The notes beneath the pieces are model-generated. The model saw only the letters and a list, made by a program, of their open reading frames with translations. It had not been told where the DNA came from and did no database searches. Shown here one piece after another: positions 5,789-17,051 of a stretch of DNA of 20,145 nt. Within the stretch, counting starts at the first letter, position 1, and each line of letters begins with the position of its first letter. The position numbers and the translations under genes are program-made. The stretch comes from a virus: positions 1 through 20,145 of IMG/VR virus record IMGVR_UViG_3300042868_013112; one strand, 5' to 3'.

Positions 5789-6394
5789 ATGACATTAGGT
5801 TTAGATATATCAACATCAGTAATAGGAATTGCTTTATTTGATAAAGAAGGTAATATTTGTAGTTTAGAATATATTAAGTTTAAAAATAAAATTAGTATGT
5901 TTCAAAAATTAGATGATTTTATTAAACATATTGATAATTTAAGTGAAGCTTTAAATTTAGAAACTGGAGAAAATAAAATACAAAATATTTCAATTGAAGA
6001 ACCTTTGAAAAAATTTAAAGGTAAATTTTCAAATGCAGATACCATCCAAAAACTTACTCAAATAAATGCTATGGTTAGTATTTATTTGTATAGAAAATTT
6101 AAAGTTGAACCTAGATATTATAATGTAAATACTGCAAGAAAAATAGTTTTTCCTGATTTAGTAATTCCTCAATCAGCTCCAAATAAGAAATATTTAGTCT
6201 GGGAAAAAGTTGTAGAAATTGCACCTCAAATTAATTGGAAATATTCTAAAAAAACACATCAACTAATGACTGAAAATTTTGATATGTCAGATAGTTTAGT
6301 TGTTGGACTTTGTGATATTATTGTTAGAAGAAAATCTTTAGACATTCAAGAAGTAGTTGAAAAAGTTGAAAAAATTGAAAAAATAAAAAAATAA
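5789..6394 (+). CDS. RuvC-like Holliday junction resolvase (RNase H fold endonuclease)
   Basis: The 201-residue protein would cleave four-way DNA junctions left by recombination and replication before packaging. It begins with the RuvC first strand LGLDISTSVIGIAL, giving catalytic Asp6. The second acidic site is in ISIEEP (Glu70, possibly Glu71). The C-terminal acidic pair is in NFDMSDSLVVGLCD (Asp165 and Asp168). This D...E...DxxD order is the RuvC/RNase H-like nuclease signature and the length is normal for the family. The C-terminal ~15 residues are a lysine/glutamate repeat (VEKVEKIEKIKK) that may bind DNA or simply be disordered. It opens the replication block, 49 bases before the primase. 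T4 itself uses the unrelated endonuclease VII (gp49), so this phage appears to use a RuvC-type enzyme for the same step. The family call is strong; the substrate is inferred. Confidence 0.85.
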   Translation: MTLGLDISTSVIGIALFDKEGNICSLEYIKFKNKISMFQKLDDFIKHIDNLSEALNLETGENKIQNISIEEPLKKFKGKFSNADTIQKLTQINAMVSIYLYRKFKVEPRYYNVNTARKIVFPDLVIPQSAPNKKYLVWEKVVEIAPQINWKYSKKTHQLMTENFDMSDSLVVGLCDIIVRRKSLDIQEVVEKVEKIEKIKK

Positions 6395-6428: not shown

Positions 6429-6444
6429 AGATATTTTTATATCT
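6429..6444 (+). promoter_or_regulatory. Small hairpin overlapping the primase start codon
   Basis: AGATAT (6429-6434) and ATATCT (6439-6444) form a perfect 6-bp stem with a TTTT loop. Flanking CC and GG could extend it around a bulged T. The last stem base is the first base of the TTG start at 6444. It could hide the start and lower translation. The stem is A/T-rich and weak, so the effect is speculative. Confidence 0.35.
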
Positions 6445-7493
6445 TGGAAGAAAAAACACAAATAGTAGTTTCAATTTTAAACACAATTTTAGGCAACCCA
6501 AAAAGAAGTGGGAATTTGCAAGAATTTGAATTTAATTGTAATTCTAAAGTTTGTAGGCTCGATAGAGAAAAATATAACTTATCTTATAATTCAAAAAGCA
6601 ATAAATTTCATTGCTGGAAATGCAAATATGGTGGTTCTATTAATAGATTAGTAGAAGATTATGGAAATAGTGAAGATATAAAGAAAATTAATTATATTTT
6701 ACCTCAAGAAAAATCATTTAAAAAAGAAATTAAAAAAGATTTTGATTTTAATGACATGATTGTTTGCAAACTACCAGAAGATTTCAGACCTTTAAATGTT
6801 CCAAATAATAGCAGTAGACATTATGTTGCAGCAGTTAAATATGTTGTAGAAAAAAGAAAAATTTCTTGGGATGTTATAAATAAGTTTAATATAGGATATA
6901 CAGAAGATAAAGGCAATAGGAAATATAGGATAATTATTCCATCTTATAATTCTTTTGGCAAAATCAATTATTATGTTGCTCGTTCTTATTATGAATCAGT
7001 AAAACCCAATTATATGGCTCCTCCAAAAGAGGAAGTTGCTAGAACTGAAATTATTTTTAATTTAAAAAATGTTAATTTTGATTTGCCAGTAATATTAGTA
7101 GAAGGAGCTTTTGATATGTTTCCTTTGTATAATGTTATCCCAATGTTAGGTAAAGAACCTTCTAAGTTAATTTTAAATAAATTAAAAGAATATGGTAGTA
7201 GAGTTATTCTTTGTTTGGATGAAGATGCTTTATTTGATACAGTAAAACTTTATAATTTATTAACCTCTTATGGTTTAGAAGTTTTTTATATAGAAGTAAA
7301 AGATGACATAGATGAATTTGTTAAAAAAAATGGTAAAGATGCAATTGTTAATTTAATGAAATCTTGTCAAAACTTACATTTACAAAATGCATTTAAAAAA
7401 CTTTGTGATAAAGAAAAAGAAAATCCAAGAGAGTATGTAGAAGAGTTAGAAATAAAAAAAGAATTTGAATTAATTAAACAAGAAAATAAATAA
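6444..7493 (+). CDS. DNA primase, DnaG-type (zinc finger + Toprim)
   Basis: This 349-residue protein would synthesise RNA primers for lagging-strand replication. The N-terminal zinc-binding domain has Cys32, Cys37, Cys57 and Cys60 (FNCNSKVC ... FHCWKCKYGGS), as in phage CHC2-type primases, though the first pair is spaced CX4C rather than the usual CX2C. The Toprim core follows: PVILVEGAFD (Glu220), ILCLDEDA (Asp259 and Asp261) and an acidic VKDDIDEF near 286-292. The start chosen is TTG at 6444. An in-frame stop lies at 6411-6413, no ATG occurs between it and the zinc finger, and the next in-frame ATG (about residue 105) would delete that finger. Two bases separate its stop from the Mre11-Rad50 fusion, so the two are probably co-translated. 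The primase call is firm; the exact first codon is not. Confidence 0.87.
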   Translation: MEEKTQIVVSILNTILGNPKRSGNLQEFEFNCNSKVCRLDREKYNLSYNSKSNKFHCWKCKYGGSINRLVEDYGNSEDIKKINYILPQEKSFKKEIKKDFDFNDMIVCKLPEDFRPLNVPNNSSRHYVAAVKYVVEKRKISWDVINKFNIGYTEDKGNRKYRIIIPSYNSFGKINYYVARSYYESVKPNYMAPPKEEVARTEIIFNLKNVNFDLPVILVEGAFDMFPLYNVIPMLGKEPSKLILNKLKEYGSRVILCLDEDALFDTVKLYNLLTSYGLEVFYIEVKDDIDEFVKKNGKDAIVNLMKSCQNLHLQNAFKKLCDKEKENPREYVEELEIKKEFELIKQENK

Positions 7494-7495
7494 TT

Positions 7496-10400
7496 ATGAA
7501 AGTAGAAATTAAAAATTTAATAGCGCATATTTCAGATATTCATATTAGATATGGTAGTAGACATGAAGAATATAGAATTGTTTTTCAAAGAGTTATTGAT
7601 GATTTACAAAATAAAGGAGTAAAGAGAATTGTTTTTTCTGGGGATTTGTTTCATATTAAGATAACACTTTCACCTAATGCAGTTATGTTGGCTGGATGGT
7701 TTTTGGAAGAGCTTTCAAAAATTGCACCTGTTGATATTATTTTAGGTAATCATGATTTAAATTTACAATCTTTAGAACAAGGAAATGCTATTGAACCTAT
7801 TATTAAACTTTTAGATGGTGGTTATATTATTGAAAAAGGAACAGAAAACATACCATTACATCAAGGTTCTAATAATGGAATATTTTTCTTTGTACATAGT
7901 GGATTTTATAATATAGATAACAATATTGTTTATGGAGTATTTTCTTGTTATGATAATGAAATGCTATCATTAAAATTAGAAGATAAAAAAGAAGATAAAA
8001 AATATATCGCTTTATTTCATGGACCAGTTTACGGATGTAGAGGTAATAATGGATATGAATTAAAAGGAGACCATTTAATGAATTTATCTGCTTTTGATAA
8101 TTTTGATATGGTTTTACTTGGGGACATTCATGAACATGAAAGTTTTAAAACAAAAGATTCAGAAGTTCAAAACATTGCTTATGCTTCCTCTTTGATTCAA
8201 CAAGATTTTTCAGAATCTATAGAAAAAGGGTATTTAATTTGGGATTTAGAAACAAATACATTTGAAAGATGTTTTATTGAAAATGATTATGGATTTGCAA
8301 AATTAAATATTTCAAGAGGTGAGTTGGTAGAAGAAAGGATTGAAGAATTAAAAATGTCAAAAAATCCTAAAAAAACTAAAGTTTCTATTGTTTGGGAAGA
8401 ATATCAAGAAAATTATTCTGTAGAAAAAGAAAAACAAATTGAAAGACTTGTTAAAACTAAATTCGGTTGCGAAACTGTAAGTGTTGATTGTCAATATATT
8501 TCTAAACAAGAAGAAATAGAAAATTTAAATATTGATGAAGATGCAGATTATTCAGATACAGAAGAATTTGAAACATTATTAAGAGAATTTGTAGAAAATA
8601 GCGAATACGATAATGAGGAAGAAGTAATTGAATTATCTAATGAAATAGATAAAATATTAAACTATACCTCCCAGAAAGGAAAAAAATGGTATTTAGATAA
8701 ATTAGAAATATGGAATTTATTTAGTTTCCCAAACAAAGTAACAACTTTTGATTTTAATAATTTAAGTGGAATAACTGGTATATTTGGTAAAAACTTTAAT
8801 GGTAAATCAAATATTATTAGAGCAGTAGTTTGGATTCTTTATAGAAAAATATTAGGAGGAGGAGAAGCTCATAGATTAACTAATATGTATACTGGAGAAG
8901 AAACAGCTGGTGGTAGAATATTTATTACAATAGATTCTGAAAAATATCTTATTGAAAGAACTGTAAAAGTAAAAACAAAAAAAGATGGAACACCAGATGT
9001 TTCTTATGGTATTGAATATAAAAAACTTGAAGGTTTAGAAGGAGAAGATAAAAAATGGAAAAATATAGACTCTGATAAAGCTGCAACAGAGAAAAAAGAA
9101 AAAAGTAATATTATTGTAGAATCAATAGGTACATTTGAAGATTTTACAAAAGTTGTTCTTCAAGCTCAAAGTGGAGAAGGTAACTTTTTAAATATGAGTC
9201 AACAACCTAAAAATGATTTAATAAATAAATATTTAGGTTTAGAAATATTTAGAGATCCTAAAGAATATGAAATTAAAATAGAAGAAGAAGAAAAATTAAT
9301 TGTTGAAAATGAAGAATCAATTAAAGAATATACTATAGAAAAAGAGGAAACTGAAAATAAAGTAGAACAAATTGATAATAAAATTCTTGAATTAACTAAA
9401 TCAATTACAAAAGTAGAGCAAACAAAATTTTCTACAACTCAAGAAGTTAACAATGCAATTGAAAAACAAAAAGAAACAAATGAAAATTCTTCTAATCAAA
9501 TACAAGATTTAGAAACTTTCTTATCTACAAACTTCAAAAAAGAATTACCAAATGAAGATTTAGATTCTCCATCTGTTATTGAAAGTAAAATAATTGATGA
9601 ACAATCTTCTTTTGCTTCAAATAAAGAAAATTATATAAAAATAGAAAAATGGTTATCTGAAAATCCTAAAAAACAAGAATTAGATATAGAACCATTAAAT
9701 AAAAAAGTAACAGATATAGAAAGTGCAATTTCTAAATTGAATGATAAACTTATTATTTCAAAAGGAAAAAAATGTCCAACTTGTAATAGCGTACAACAAG
9801 TAGCAGATGCAGAACTTGAAAATAAATGTGTTGAGGATATAAAAAGAGGACAAGAAGCTTTAGAAATTGCAAAAGCAAGCGTTTTAGAGTCTAAAAACAT
9901 ATCTATACATAACAACAATTATGATAGAGAAGAAAATCGATTAGGAGCGTTAAAAAACACATTACAAACAAATAAACTTAATCTTGATAAGTATAAAAAA
10001 GATTTAGAATTATCAAAAAGTATTTTTGAAATAAAAAGTCATAATAAAATTGTTAATGAAAAAACTTTAAGTTTAGATTCTTTTAGAAAAATATTAATTA
10101 ATGGTGAAAATGATATTTTAGAACTTGAAAAAGAAATTAAAATAATCGATTCAAATAAAGAGTTCATTTCTAAAAATTTAACTATAAATGAAGAAATTAA
10201 AGAATATGAATTTGAAAAGAAAAGCCAAAGACTTATTGTACATCAATTAAATGAAAAAATTGTTGATTTAAAATCTAAAAATAGTGTTTCAAATAAAAAT
10301 ATTGAAAATTTTAAACAAAATTTAGAATCTATAAAAGAAGCAGAAAAATCTTATAGAAAATATACAATTTATTTACAAGCTGTACATAGAGATGGAATAC

Positions 10401-10891
10401 CAGCAAAAATAATTAAAAAGAAACTTCCTGTTATTAATTATAAAATAAACTCTATATTAAGAAATTTAGTAGATTTTAAAATAGAAATTTTAATAAAAGA
10501 TAACGGAGATATTAAAGAAATGTTTTACTTTAATTCACTTGAAAAAGATGCTTTACCAATGTCTATGGCTTCAGGTGCTCAAAACTTTGTTGGAAGTGTA
10601 GCAATTAGAGATTCTTTACATTTTGTTAGTACATTAACTAAACCATCTTTATGTATAATTGATGAGGGGTTTGGAGCTTTAGATGATGATTTAACTATTG
10701 CTATGGAAGGTGTATTTAATTATCTTAAAAATAAATATAAAAACACATGGGTTATAACTCACAAAAATGAAATAAAAGATTTTGTTGATAATATCATTCA
10801 AGTTTCCAAAACTCAAGTTGGATTAACTGAAGAACAAATAGAAGAAAATCCTAAATGTGGTATATCAGTATTTGATATTCAAAAAAATTAA
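7496..10891 (+). CDS. Single-chain Mre11-Rad50 (SbcD-SbcC; T4 gp47-gp46) recombination nuclease/ATPase fusion
   Basis: The 1131-residue protein joins both subunits of the complex that resects DNA ends for recombination-dependent replication. Residues 1-~260 are the Mre11/SbcD phosphoesterase: AHISDIH (Asp14, His16), FSGD (Asp50), LGNHD (Asn85, His86), FHGP (His175) and LLGDIHEHE (Asp210, His212, His214). A highly acidic linker of about 130 residues follows. The Rad50/SbcC ATPase begins at ~396 with Walker A GKNFNGKSN (Lys437) and a Q-loop region at VVLQAQSGEG. A long Lys/Glu-rich coiled coil carries a zinc hook CPTC (Cys760, Cys763). The ABC signature is SMASGAQNF (~1023-1031), Walker B is CIIDEGFGALD (Asp1056, Glu1057), and the H-loop is WVITHK. 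All key residues of both partners are present in one uninterrupted frame. T4 and E. coli encode two proteins; the order here matches sbcD-sbcC. Domain calls are strong. Confidence 0.93.
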   Translation: MKVEIKNLIAHISDIHIRYGSRHEEYRIVFQRVIDDLQNKGVKRIVFSGDLFHIKITLSPNAVMLAGWFLEELSKIAPVDIILGNHDLNLQSLEQGNAIEPIIKLLDGGYIIEKGTENIPLHQGSNNGIFFFVHSGFYNIDNNIVYGVFSCYDNEMLSLKLEDKKEDKKYIALFHGPVYGCRGNNGYELKGDHLMNLSAFDNFDMVLLGDIHEHESFKTKDSEVQNIAYASSLIQQDFSESIEKGYLIWDLETNTFERCFIENDYGFAKLNISRGELVEERIEELKMSKNPKKTKVSIVWEEYQENYSVEKEKQIERLVKTKFGCETVSVDCQYISKQEEIENLNIDEDADYSDTEEFETLLREFVENSEYDNEEEVIELSNEIDKILNYTSQKGKKWYLDKLEIWNLFSFPNKVTTFDFNNLSGITGIFGKNFNGKSNIIRAVVWILYRKILGGGEAHRLTNMYTGEETAGGRIFITIDSEKYLIERTVKVKTKKDGTPDVSYGIEYKKLEGLEGEDKKWKNIDSDKAATEKKEKSNIIVESIGTFEDFTKVVLQAQSGEGNFLNMSQQPKNDLINKYLGLEIFRDPKEYEIKIEEEEKLIVENEESIKEYTIEKEETENKVEQIDNKILELTKSITKVEQTKFSTTQEVNNAIEKQKETNENSSNQIQDLETFLSTNFKKELPNEDLDSPSVIESKIIDEQSSFASNKENYIKIEKWLSENPKKQELDIEPLNKKVTDIESAISKLNDKLIISKGKKCPTCNSVQQVADAELENKCVEDIKRGQEALEIAKASVLESKNISIHNNNYDREENRLGALKNTLQTNKLNLDKYKKDLELSKSIFEIKSHNKIVNEKTLSLDSFRKILINGENDILELEKEIKIIDSNKEFISKNLTINEEIKEYEFEKKSQRLIVHQLNEKIVDLKSKNSVSNKNIENFKQNLESIKEAEKSYRKYTIYLQAVHRDGIPAKIIKKKLPVINYKINSILRNLVDFKIEILIKDNGDIKEMFYFNSLEKDALPMSMASGAQNFVGSVAIRDSLHFVSTLTKPSLCIIDEGFGALDDDLTIAMEGVFNYLKNKYKNTWVITHKNEIKDFVDNIIQVSKTQVGLTEEQIEENPKCGISVFDIQKN

Positions 10892-10900
10892 TTATATACA

Positions 10901-10936
10901 AAAAAATCTGCATTAAAACAATGCAGATTTTTTTTT
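10901..10936. terminator. Bidirectional intrinsic terminator
   Basis: A perfect 14-bp inverted repeat has arms 10901-10914 and 10920-10933 (core ATCTGCATT / AATGCAGAT) and loop AAAAC. It is flanked by A and T runs, so it works on both strands. It separates the convergent Mre11-Rad50 gene and the minus-strand operon, and its T run touches the minus-strand stop codon. Confidence 0.88.
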
Positions 10937-11552
10937 AATTTTCATTTCCCCCAATCCTCGTCTCTGGATTTTGAATAGGCTGTTCCAAAGGTCGTTCATT
11001 TTTATCTTTAAATAATTTAACAATATTTTTTTGTTCTCCAGCCTCTTGTTGTTTTTTTAATAAATCTTCTTGAAAAGCTTTTATTTTATTTAAATCTGTA
11101 TAAACTTCAACAGTTGTCATTCCTTTATCATTTGAATTATAACCATTTAATGGTCCTTGAAAGAAATTTCCAGTAAACCACATTCCTTTTATATTATTTG
11201 TTTTAAATAATCTCCAAACATTTTTAATTTCAGCACTTCTAACCCCAGTCATTTTTGCTTGTTTTTCAGATTGACCTTGCTTATGTATTGCTCTGACAAC
11301 TTTATTTCCTTTTTTTGAAGTTCCCATAGCAACTGGATAAATAATTCTATATTTACCAGAACCAGCAAGCATAGAATCTCCTTTATATAAAATACCAACT
11401 TCTCTACCTTCTTGAATAGCTTGAGTCATTAAATCAATATTAAAAGGGACTCTATTATTACTTAGAGCGAAAGCAGTTTCATTATCAACATCTTCATTTA
11501 ATAATCCTGCCAACTTTTTCAATCTATTCTTAAAACTTTCTGATAATAACAT
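10935..11552 (-). CDS. Tagged, probably packaged protein with WYL-like (SH3-type beta-barrel) domain
   Basis: The 205-residue protein is the last gene of the minus operon. Residues 1-20 are a basic amphipathic tag (LLSESFKNRLKKLAGLL then NE). The next gene upstream encodes nearly the same tag before an unrelated body. Residues ~38-155 resemble a WYL-type domain: a helix with AIQEGREVGILYKG, strands YRIIYPVAMG and NKVVRAIHKQG, a segment VRSAEIKNVWRLF, and an aromatic-rich end. The classical W-Y-L triad is not evident, so this is a tentative fold suggestion. The last ~45 residues are a charged, Gln/Glu-rich tail. The tag ends in LxE (LNE20), like capsid-targeting peptides cut by T4-type prohead proteases. 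Prediction: an internal virion protein delivered into the host. The function of the body is unknown. Confidence 0.72.
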   Translation of the reverse strand: MLLSESFKNRLKKLAGLLNEDVDNETAFALSNNRVPFNIDLMTQAIQEGREVGILYKGDSMLAGSGKYRIIYPVAMGTSKKGNKVVRAIHKQGQSEKQAKMTGVRSAEIKNVWRLFKTNNIKGMWFTGNFFQGPLNGYNSNDKGMTTVEVYTDLNKIKAFQEDLLKKQQEAGEQKNIVKLFKDKNERPLEQPIQNPETRIGGNEN

Positions 11553-11559
11553 AATTAAT
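11479..11559 (-). repeat. Tag repeat copy 1 (81 bp), 5' end of the WYL-like gene
   Basis: This copy matches 12093-12173 at 78 of 81 positions by eye. It spans the last bases of the upstream gene (its stop codon), the intergenic bases, the ATG and the first ~24 codons. Outside it the two genes are unrelated, so it behaves as a discrete module rather than the remnant of a whole-gene duplication. Confidence 0.9.
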
Positions 11560-12166
11560 ATAAATCGTATTTTGTTATTTCATCTTTCGATGTAATTTGT
11601 TTAATATCTTTAATTTTTTTCATATTATAAAGAACCATCATTTTTTCCCCCCACCCAAAAGGATTATCAACAATTTCATAATCAATATTATTATTAATTA
11701 AAAATTCTCTTAAATTAATTGTGTTTTTAGGTTTTAAAGCTTTTTCATTAAGTATTATATTATTAAAGATAAAAGCTTTTATTTTATTTTCTTGATTGTA
11801 TTTTTCTAATCTTTCTAAAATTTCTTTTTGTTTATTTTTAATAACATTATTTAATACAAATTCTTTAACATCATCTAGATTTAAAAAAGAATTATTTATA
11901 TCATTTCCTTTATCTACTGTTATTAAATATAATTTTCTACTACCTTTAGAATATTTTAAAGCTGTATCGTAATGGGTTGTTAAATATAAACCAGCACCAT
12001 ATTCATATCTACCATTTTTTTGAGCAATATTTTCATCGTAATCATTTAAGTTACCTCCATGCCAAAATTGCATATTATTTTCAAAACTAATATCATTATC
12101 AACACCTTCAGTTAATAATCCTGCCAACTTCTTCAATCTATTCTTAAAACTTTCTGATAATAACAT
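11555..12166 (-). CDS. Tagged ADP-ribosyltransferase-like protein, probable packaged host-takeover enzyme
   Basis: The 203-residue protein would transfer ADP-ribose from NAD+ to a host target. After the 20-residue tag (LLSESFKNRLKKLAGLL, then TE), residues 32-85 carry the ART core pattern: FWHGGN (His36), then YGAGLYLTTHYDTALKYS (Tyr61) and a strand KLYLITVDKG. This resembles the H-Y-E (PARP/diphtheria-toxin-like) class. Glu174 in FGWGEKMMVLYNMKKI is the best candidate for the catalytic Glu, before the last core strand. The tag ends LTE20-Gly21, a good match to the (L/I)xE cleavage site of T4 prohead protease gp21. T4 Alt is a known packaged, gp21-processed ADP-ribosyltransferase, although its sequence is different. 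The gene lies 2 bases from both neighbours in a tight operon. ART fold: moderate confidence. Packaging and target: inferred. Confidence 0.75.
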   Translation of the reverse strand: MLLSESFKNRLKKLAGLLTEGVDNDISFENNMQFWHGGNLNDYDENIAQKNGRYEYGAGLYLTTHYDTALKYSKGSRKLYLITVDKGNDINNSFLNLDDVKEFVLNNVIKNKQKEILERLEKYNQENKIKAFIFNNIILNEKALKPKNTINLREFLINNNIDYEIVDNPFGWGEKMMVLYNMKKIKDIKQITSKDEITKYDLY

Positions 12167-16571: not shown

Positions 16572-17051
16572 ATGACAGCACAAATAACACAAGCGGAAAT
16601 CAATCAATTAAAATCTCAATTTAATAAAAAGTTGGGTAAATTTTCAGTTATATTTGATAAAGATGAAAACGGAGAAGAAAACTTTAAAATTTATAATGGT
16701 AAAAGTGGAGCTGATGCTTATTGGTCAGGTAAAATAATTTTACAAAATGATTATAGTATCTCTTGGAATTTTTCTTTATTGGATGGACTTACATTAAGTT
16801 CTGAAGCTTTTAAAATTGATGAAAATACAAAAGATATAGTTTTATACATAAAAGACATGTATGATATTTGGTATCAAAATATATCACCATATATTGGAGA
16901 TGAAATATCTAATCCAACTGGTCCATCAAAAGCAAACGCTGAAGCTCCAATAGAAGAACAGTTACCAATAGCTGAATCAATTAATTTAAATGATAGACAA
17001 AAAGTTATTAATGAAAATAATGACAGAATGAAACGTCTTGCTGGATTATAA
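16572..17051 (+). CDS. Hypothetical phage protein with C-terminal tag-like motif
   Basis: The 159-residue protein is last in the plus operon. Residues 1-~115 form an alpha/beta domain: an N-terminal helix (AEINQLKSQFNKKLG), then several strands with GKSGADAYWSGKIIL and ISWNFSLLDGLTLSS. A Pro/Ala/Glu linker follows (~118-135). The final 15 residues, NENNDRMKRLAGL at the very end, match the tag of the two minus-strand proteins (SESFKNRLKKLAGL) in the pattern E-x2-[KD]-R-[LM]-K-[KR]-L-A-G-L. The tag is therefore used at either end of a protein. If it directs proteins into the prohead, this would be another packaged protein. Function is otherwise unknown. A terminator follows 21 bases after the stop. 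Confidence 0.65.
   Translation: MTAQITQAEINQLKSQFNKKLGKFSVIFDKDENGEENFKIYNGKSGADAYWSGKIILQNDYSISWNFSLLDGLTLSSEAFKIDENTKDIVLYIKDMYDIWYQNISPYIGDEISNPTGPSKANAEAPIEEQLPIAESINLNDRQKVINENNDRMKRLAGL

Follow-up and report, generated by a model that had tools for sequence, protein, structure and literature searches.

Can a single gene of a large tailed phage encode the whole Mre11-Rad50 complex as one polypeptide, and would joining the two subunits change how they are arranged? The window, by which we mean the whole stretch of 20145 bases analysed here, raises this question with one uninterrupted ATG-to-stop frame of 1131 codons, encoding an Mre11/SbcD nuclease and a Rad50/SbcC ATPase, both complete. 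Such fusions have a precedent. In 2011, Yoshida, Claverie and Ogata reported them from eukaryotes and bacterial plasmids as well as from Mimivirus (R555) and a Bacillus phage; genes like R555 were, by their inference, abundant among aquatic viruses (PMC3175470). The novelty implied by the original prediction is thereby lost, and the window fusion is a well-formed example of an already described kind, not new in kind.

Anatomy of the fusion protein

The gene and its parts are:

7496..10891, plus strand: Mre11-Rad50 fusion gene, 1131 aa plus stop (open frame, Pfam/PHROG halves, Foldseek)
7496..8275, plus strand: Mre11 phosphoesterase domain, residues 1-260 (Pfam Metallophos at 9-213, family invariance, AlphaFold2 model)
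8276..8500, plus strand: Mre11 capping domain, residues 261-335 (AlphaFold2 pLDDT high over most of the stretch)
8501..8557, plus strand: flexible acidic stretch, residues 336-354, with 8 D/E against 1 K/R
8558..8659, plus strand: helix-loop-helix, predicted Rad50-binding domain, residues 355-388 (AlphaFold2 helices 355-368 and 374-388)
8660..8683, plus strand: covalent connector NYTSQKGK, residues 389-396, about 8 residues, without predicted structure (AlphaFold2)
8684..9325, plus strand: Rad50 N-lobe, residues 397-610 (Pfam AAA_23 at 402-636, family invariance)
9326..10345, plus strand: Rad50 coiled coil, residues about 611-950 (long helices in the AlphaFold2 model)
9773..9784, plus strand: zinc-hook CPTC, residues 760-763, in the coiled coil
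10346..10888, plus strand: Rad50 C-lobe, residues 951-1131 (signature SG 1026-1027, Walker B DE 1056-1057, H1089)

The expectation that all Mre11 and Rad50 motifs share one frame was borne out by the frame itself, by the Pfam and PHROG matches and by a 75-member family alignment. PHROG 100 (SbcD-like) matches the N-terminal part and PHROG 77 (SbcC-like) the C-terminal part. Foldseek searches of both halves against the PDB returned the C. thermophilum MRN complex, T. maritima Mre11:Rad50 (3tho, 3qg5) and E. coli SbcCD (6s6v, 7yzo). The fusion resembles the latter two in the fold of both halves, the capping domain and the helix-loop-helix; unlike it, both are built from two chains, and E. coli SbcC is longer (1048 aa). 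An AlphaFold2 model computed from the 75-sequence alignment (mean pLDDT 81) places the elements E266-272, H278-282, E294-303, H309-323 and E327-335 in the capping domain. Its pTM of 0.45 makes the relative placement of the Mre11 and Rad50 halves unreliable.

The region between the two catalytic parts had been read as an acidic linker of about residues 260-395. The acidity stands, since residues 336-388 are acid-rich and 21 D/E face 5 K/R over 336-396, but most of the region is predicted to be folded capping domain and Rad50-binding helices. Within residues 260-395, pLDDT drops below 50 at 338-346 only, and the connector proper comprises about 8 residues; in the 75 relatives, 9-12 residues stand ahead of the conserved W398 at this point. 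The predicted helix-loop-helix matches that at the C-terminus of T. maritima Mre11 in position, and in the T. maritima complex the gap between the separate Mre11 and Rad50 chains spans about 28 Å, or 9-12 residues (PMC3175470). Fusion does fix a 1:1 stoichiometry, if trivially, whereas a special constraint on the nuclease-ATPase geometry, also proposed at the outset, is unsupported, given a connector of roughly the same length as this gap. The same arrangement, a single polypeptide in which the Mre11 half precedes the Rad50 half, with a helix-loop-helix followed by some 9-12 extra residues before Rad50, characterizes the fusions of the 2011 study, whose authors judged the helix-loop-helix and short connector compatible with the complex (PMC3175470).

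Catalytic residues

The Mre11 half shows the motifs DxH, GDxx, GNHD, H and GxxH, with the phosphoesterase ligands D14, H16, D50, N85, H86, H175, D210 and H212. Seven of these (D14, D50, N85, H86, H175, D210 and H212) are invariant in the 75-member alignment, and H16 is kept in 73/75. In the Rad50 half, Walker A (GKNFNGKS, 431-438), Q-loop, ABC signature, Walker B, D-loop and H-loop are all present, distributed over two lobes that are split by a coiled coil with a CxxC zinc hook at its apex. Here N433, G436 and K437 of Walker A, Q558, S1026-G1027, D1056-E1057 and H1089 are invariant in the same alignment. The coiled coil is the region of lowest identity between close relatives, and a CxxC lies within it in 64 of the 75. 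A relative at L023:5625-9692 encodes a fused protein of about 1353 aa, the extra length falling in the coiled coil, with near-repeated segments (WL..NFKK.L..).

One metal ligand departs from the textbook motif. The equivalent of P. furiosus His206, the first His of GHxH, is Asp210 (GDIH) without exception in the 75 fused proteins of the alignment, and catalytic properties could differ as a consequence. Asp also occupies this position in pT24, PTm1, MA9V-1 and LR756501, and among the sampled fused phages it is common to all but PAU, which has His, as do those two-gene proteins whose motif could be located. The fused proteins also carry H53 (GDxxH) in 74/75 cases. Mimivirus R555 likewise combines GDxxH with Asp for His206 (PMC3175470), and by its published description it further shares with the window protein the Mre11-Rad50 order, the retained helix-loop-helix and the short connector; it differs in size (1351 aa) and in coming from an amoeba virus.

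Fused homologues and their origin

How common is the fused arrangement? After near-identical sequences were collapsed, 205 non-redundant complete fused homologues were found in viral contigs and phages. Profile scans were required for this, as the first scan of viral contigs with a single sequence found only a distant two-gene locus. The original prediction would have been undermined had all relatives kept two genes at this locus. Two half-protein queries, chosen as not presupposing fusion, gave the opposite picture. With Rad50 alone, 70 of the 76 loci newly listed were fused and the other 6 ended at a contig edge; with Mre11 alone, 68 of 79 were fused and the remaining 11 were two-gene loci, all distant (<=28% identity). 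Among the loci counted as fused are, for either query, a few whose frame is broken at another place.

The fused frame also occurs in isolated large tailed phages, namely PAU (gp288), pT24 (gp019), PTm1 (ORF-075), MA9V-1 and Mel-JY01 (WWT39521), whose records carry 'metallo-phosphoesterase / DNA repair' annotation and leave the fusion unmentioned. PAU, pT24 and Mel-JY01 are just about 20-29% identical to the window protein over the alignment, and fusions of the PAU type reach about 1300 aa. With the entire window as query, megablast matched no phage and hence gave no named near relative. A plasmid search returned just one weak nuclease-domain match, and contigs of bacterial and archaeal genomes gave 11 matches, of which the longer ones lie on short MAG contigs and are probably phage. 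Mre11-Rad50 fusions are common in large phages.

Did these genes arise once? A single branch in our trees separates the 27 fused phage proteins sampled, without exception, from two-gene phages and E. coli (SH-aLRT 100 for the concatenated alignment, 93 for Mre11 alone and 99 for the Rad50 heads alone). The trees were computed quickly, and they contain few two-gene rows and several long branches. The comparators were T4, S-SSM7, two Bacillus phages, Moorella phage MTATph1, IMG/VR two-gene loci and E. coli. The topology is compatible with a single fusion origin in phages, judged from sequence. Several independent fusions across phage lineages would also agree with the function proposed below. 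Repeated fusion across life was the proposal of the 2011 study, whose 13 fusions were polyphyletic (PMC3175470); several of them, from Clostridium, eukaryotes and Bacillus phage 0305phi8-36, are absent from our sampled set. Against this, the grouping of the 27 proteins and their Asp at the His206 position, PAU excepted, make repeated fusion unlikely, if still deserving of serious consideration.

One frame, probably one chain

A fused frame might still deliver two subunits that act as usual, if the single translated chain were processed afterwards or if a separate Rad50 were also produced by internal initiation. The short connector is likely to be exposed and might be cleaved. An internal start fares worse: the stretch between codons 287 and 464 of the window fusion lacks any in-frame ATG, GTG or TTG, so that an intact separate Rad50, one that starts from strand 1, keeps Walker A whole and includes no Mre11 sequence, is not expected from starts of these kinds. 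Altogether we regard such a return to two subunits as highly improbable.

The junction itself was compared with that of the closest relatives, which are about 62% identical and join the two halves in the same, gap-free way. Between the window and relative L012, differences across the junction number 12/11/28 at codon positions 1, 2 and 3, with 0 gaps over residues 336-395, and the hidden stop or start in the linker that had been named as a possible refutation does not appear. The suspicion that a stop codon was lost in assembly or sequencing between the two genes of an sbcDC-type operon could appeal to the window being a single metagenomic virus record of IMG/VR and to the adjoining sbcD and sbcC genes of Herelleviridae, both spanned by one tblastn piece, but it has practically no chance of being right, as the conserved junction shows substitutions of the coding type and the 205 fused homologues, isolated sequenced phages among them, refute it through independent assemblies. 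The Mre11-Rad50 fusion is real, and nothing in it points to an overlooked stop or a shift of frame.

Relatives that are split again

More unusual than the fusion itself is a side observation on its relatives. In four loci, the fused frame is broken inside Mre11, just past the GDIH loop, leaving an Mre11-N piece of 224-255 aa and an Mre11C-Rad50 piece of 860-941 aa:

L003:5980-10166 (LR756508), split fused locus
L021:6977-11000, split fused locus
L026:3955-9784, split fused locus
L172:3304-6547, split fused locus

A further scan added two more, L350 and L353, the latter showing the N piece only, and met the contigs of L026 and L021 again (as L348 and L349). Where the intact close relatives L351 and L352 have a short loop following GDIHEYQTF, the split loci have other sequence instead. 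The pieces are separated by about 2.4 kb in L348, 0.57 kb in L349 and 1 kb in L350; L172 has no gap, its two ORFs overlapping by 14 nt. Between the pieces of L003, L021 and L026 lies an ORF or remnant of a PD-(D/E)XK-type endonuclease (Pfam, TnsA-like or PvuRts1I-like, some of these matches falling under the curated cut-off). In the L350 gap no endonuclease was seen, and a 162-aa ORF there is similar to a 159-aa ORF of L026.

Self-splicing introns were considered as the cause of the break and rejected, with no Rfam match at gathering in the window and L003 and none at E 0.5 in L003, L021, L026 and L172. Inteins were rejected as well: the tails measure 25-34 and 13-15 residues and by inspection lack splice-site residues.

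The tails of the N pieces are acidic (net charge -5 to -10), the heads of the C pieces carry +1 to +6, and nothing matched the acidic tail when other phage sequences were searched. Phage genes that were split by endonuclease insertion and yet stay functional are known, for instance nrdA of Aeh1 (PMC2988022, PMC3653736), and we liken the Mre11-Rad50 pieces to this split ribonucleotide reductase. By that analogy, the fused family may have been split anew after GDIH, mostly with inserted genes, and the acidic and basic tails may keep its pieces associated in trans, a reading for and against which we see the balance as even; we infer that Mre11-N and Mre11C-Rad50 would assemble. The re-split relatives may then be another natural enzyme kept working in pieces. 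Separately, the fused frame at L286:5977-9420 is divided by one in-frame TAG (618 + 528 aa), which may be a sequencing error or a true stop.

Gene neighbourhood

Around the fusion gene, three features were assigned:

5789..6394, plus strand: RuvC-like resolvase (phrog_827 and phrog_159, weak), before the primase
6444..7493, plus strand: DNA primase (phrog_47, E 9.7e-36), directly upstream, 2 nt gap to the fusion
10900..10934, plus strand: terminator-like hairpin with a T run, just 3' of the fusion gene

A primase ends less than 600 nt upstream in 230 of the 294 fused loci that have enough flank, reminiscent of R555, whose ocean-metagenome homologues share scaffolds with primases (PMC3175470). 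In the scanned region, 2 terminator-like hairpins were seen against 0.5 expected, and promoter-like matches near the fusion gene were no more numerous than by chance.

Large relative genomes were also searched for additional copies. In nine IMG/VR records (170-237 kb, not certified complete), the PHROG search gave no separate SbcD match; PHROG 77 matched only within the long fused frame (1043-1170 codons), and so did PHROG 100, which had no match in two of the nine. The large relative genomes examined thus contain no recognisable separate second Mre11 or Rad50.

Elsewhere in the window, the proteins encoded at 10935-11552 and 11555-12166 (both minus strand) share the start MLLSESFKNRLKKLAGLL(N/T)E, and the protein of 16572-17051 (plus strand) ends in NDRMKRLAGL. 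The shared start and this end are possible capsid-targeting or prohead-protease (LxE) signals of packaged proteins; the shared-start proteins presumably resemble T4 internal proteins. The product of 11555-12166 has weak ADP-ribosyltransferase matches (ART-PolyVal, E 0.0025; DUF3990, E 0.00086), both under the curated cut-off, and given its shared-start tag it is possibly a packaged ART like T4 Alt.

Proposed function and significance

The fusion very probably represents the T4 gp47/gp46-type (SbcD-SbcC) complex of a large tailed phage in one polypeptide, presumably acting as an M2R2-equivalent dimer in recombination-dependent replication. It resembles T4 gp47/gp46 and the SbcD/SbcC of cyanophages and Herelleviridae in domains, gene order, short coiled coil and the presumed role of a phage recombination nuclease, whereas those phages have two genes and GHxH, not GDIH, at the metal motif. 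The usual Mre11 order of phosphoesterase, capping and Rad50-binding domain leads through about 8 residues into strand 1 of a Rad50 ATPase with a short, zinc-hooked coiled coil. Family knowledge suggests how such an enzyme would work. Two chains would together correspond to the usual M2R2 complex. By binding and hydrolysing ATP, the Rad50 dimer would gate the access of Mre11 to DNA ends, and end resection by the enzyme would serve repair and recombination-dependent replication, together with the products of the adjoining primase and RuvC-like genes.

What is settled is that the Mre11-Rad50 fusion is widespread among large environmental phages as well as real, and that the idea of a long linker has been corrected. 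The isolated phages PAU, pT24, PTm1, MA9V-1 and Mel-JY01 are where the fusion question can be tested, and a compact single-chain Mre11-Rad50 of 1131 aa with a short coil could be a convenient structural target.
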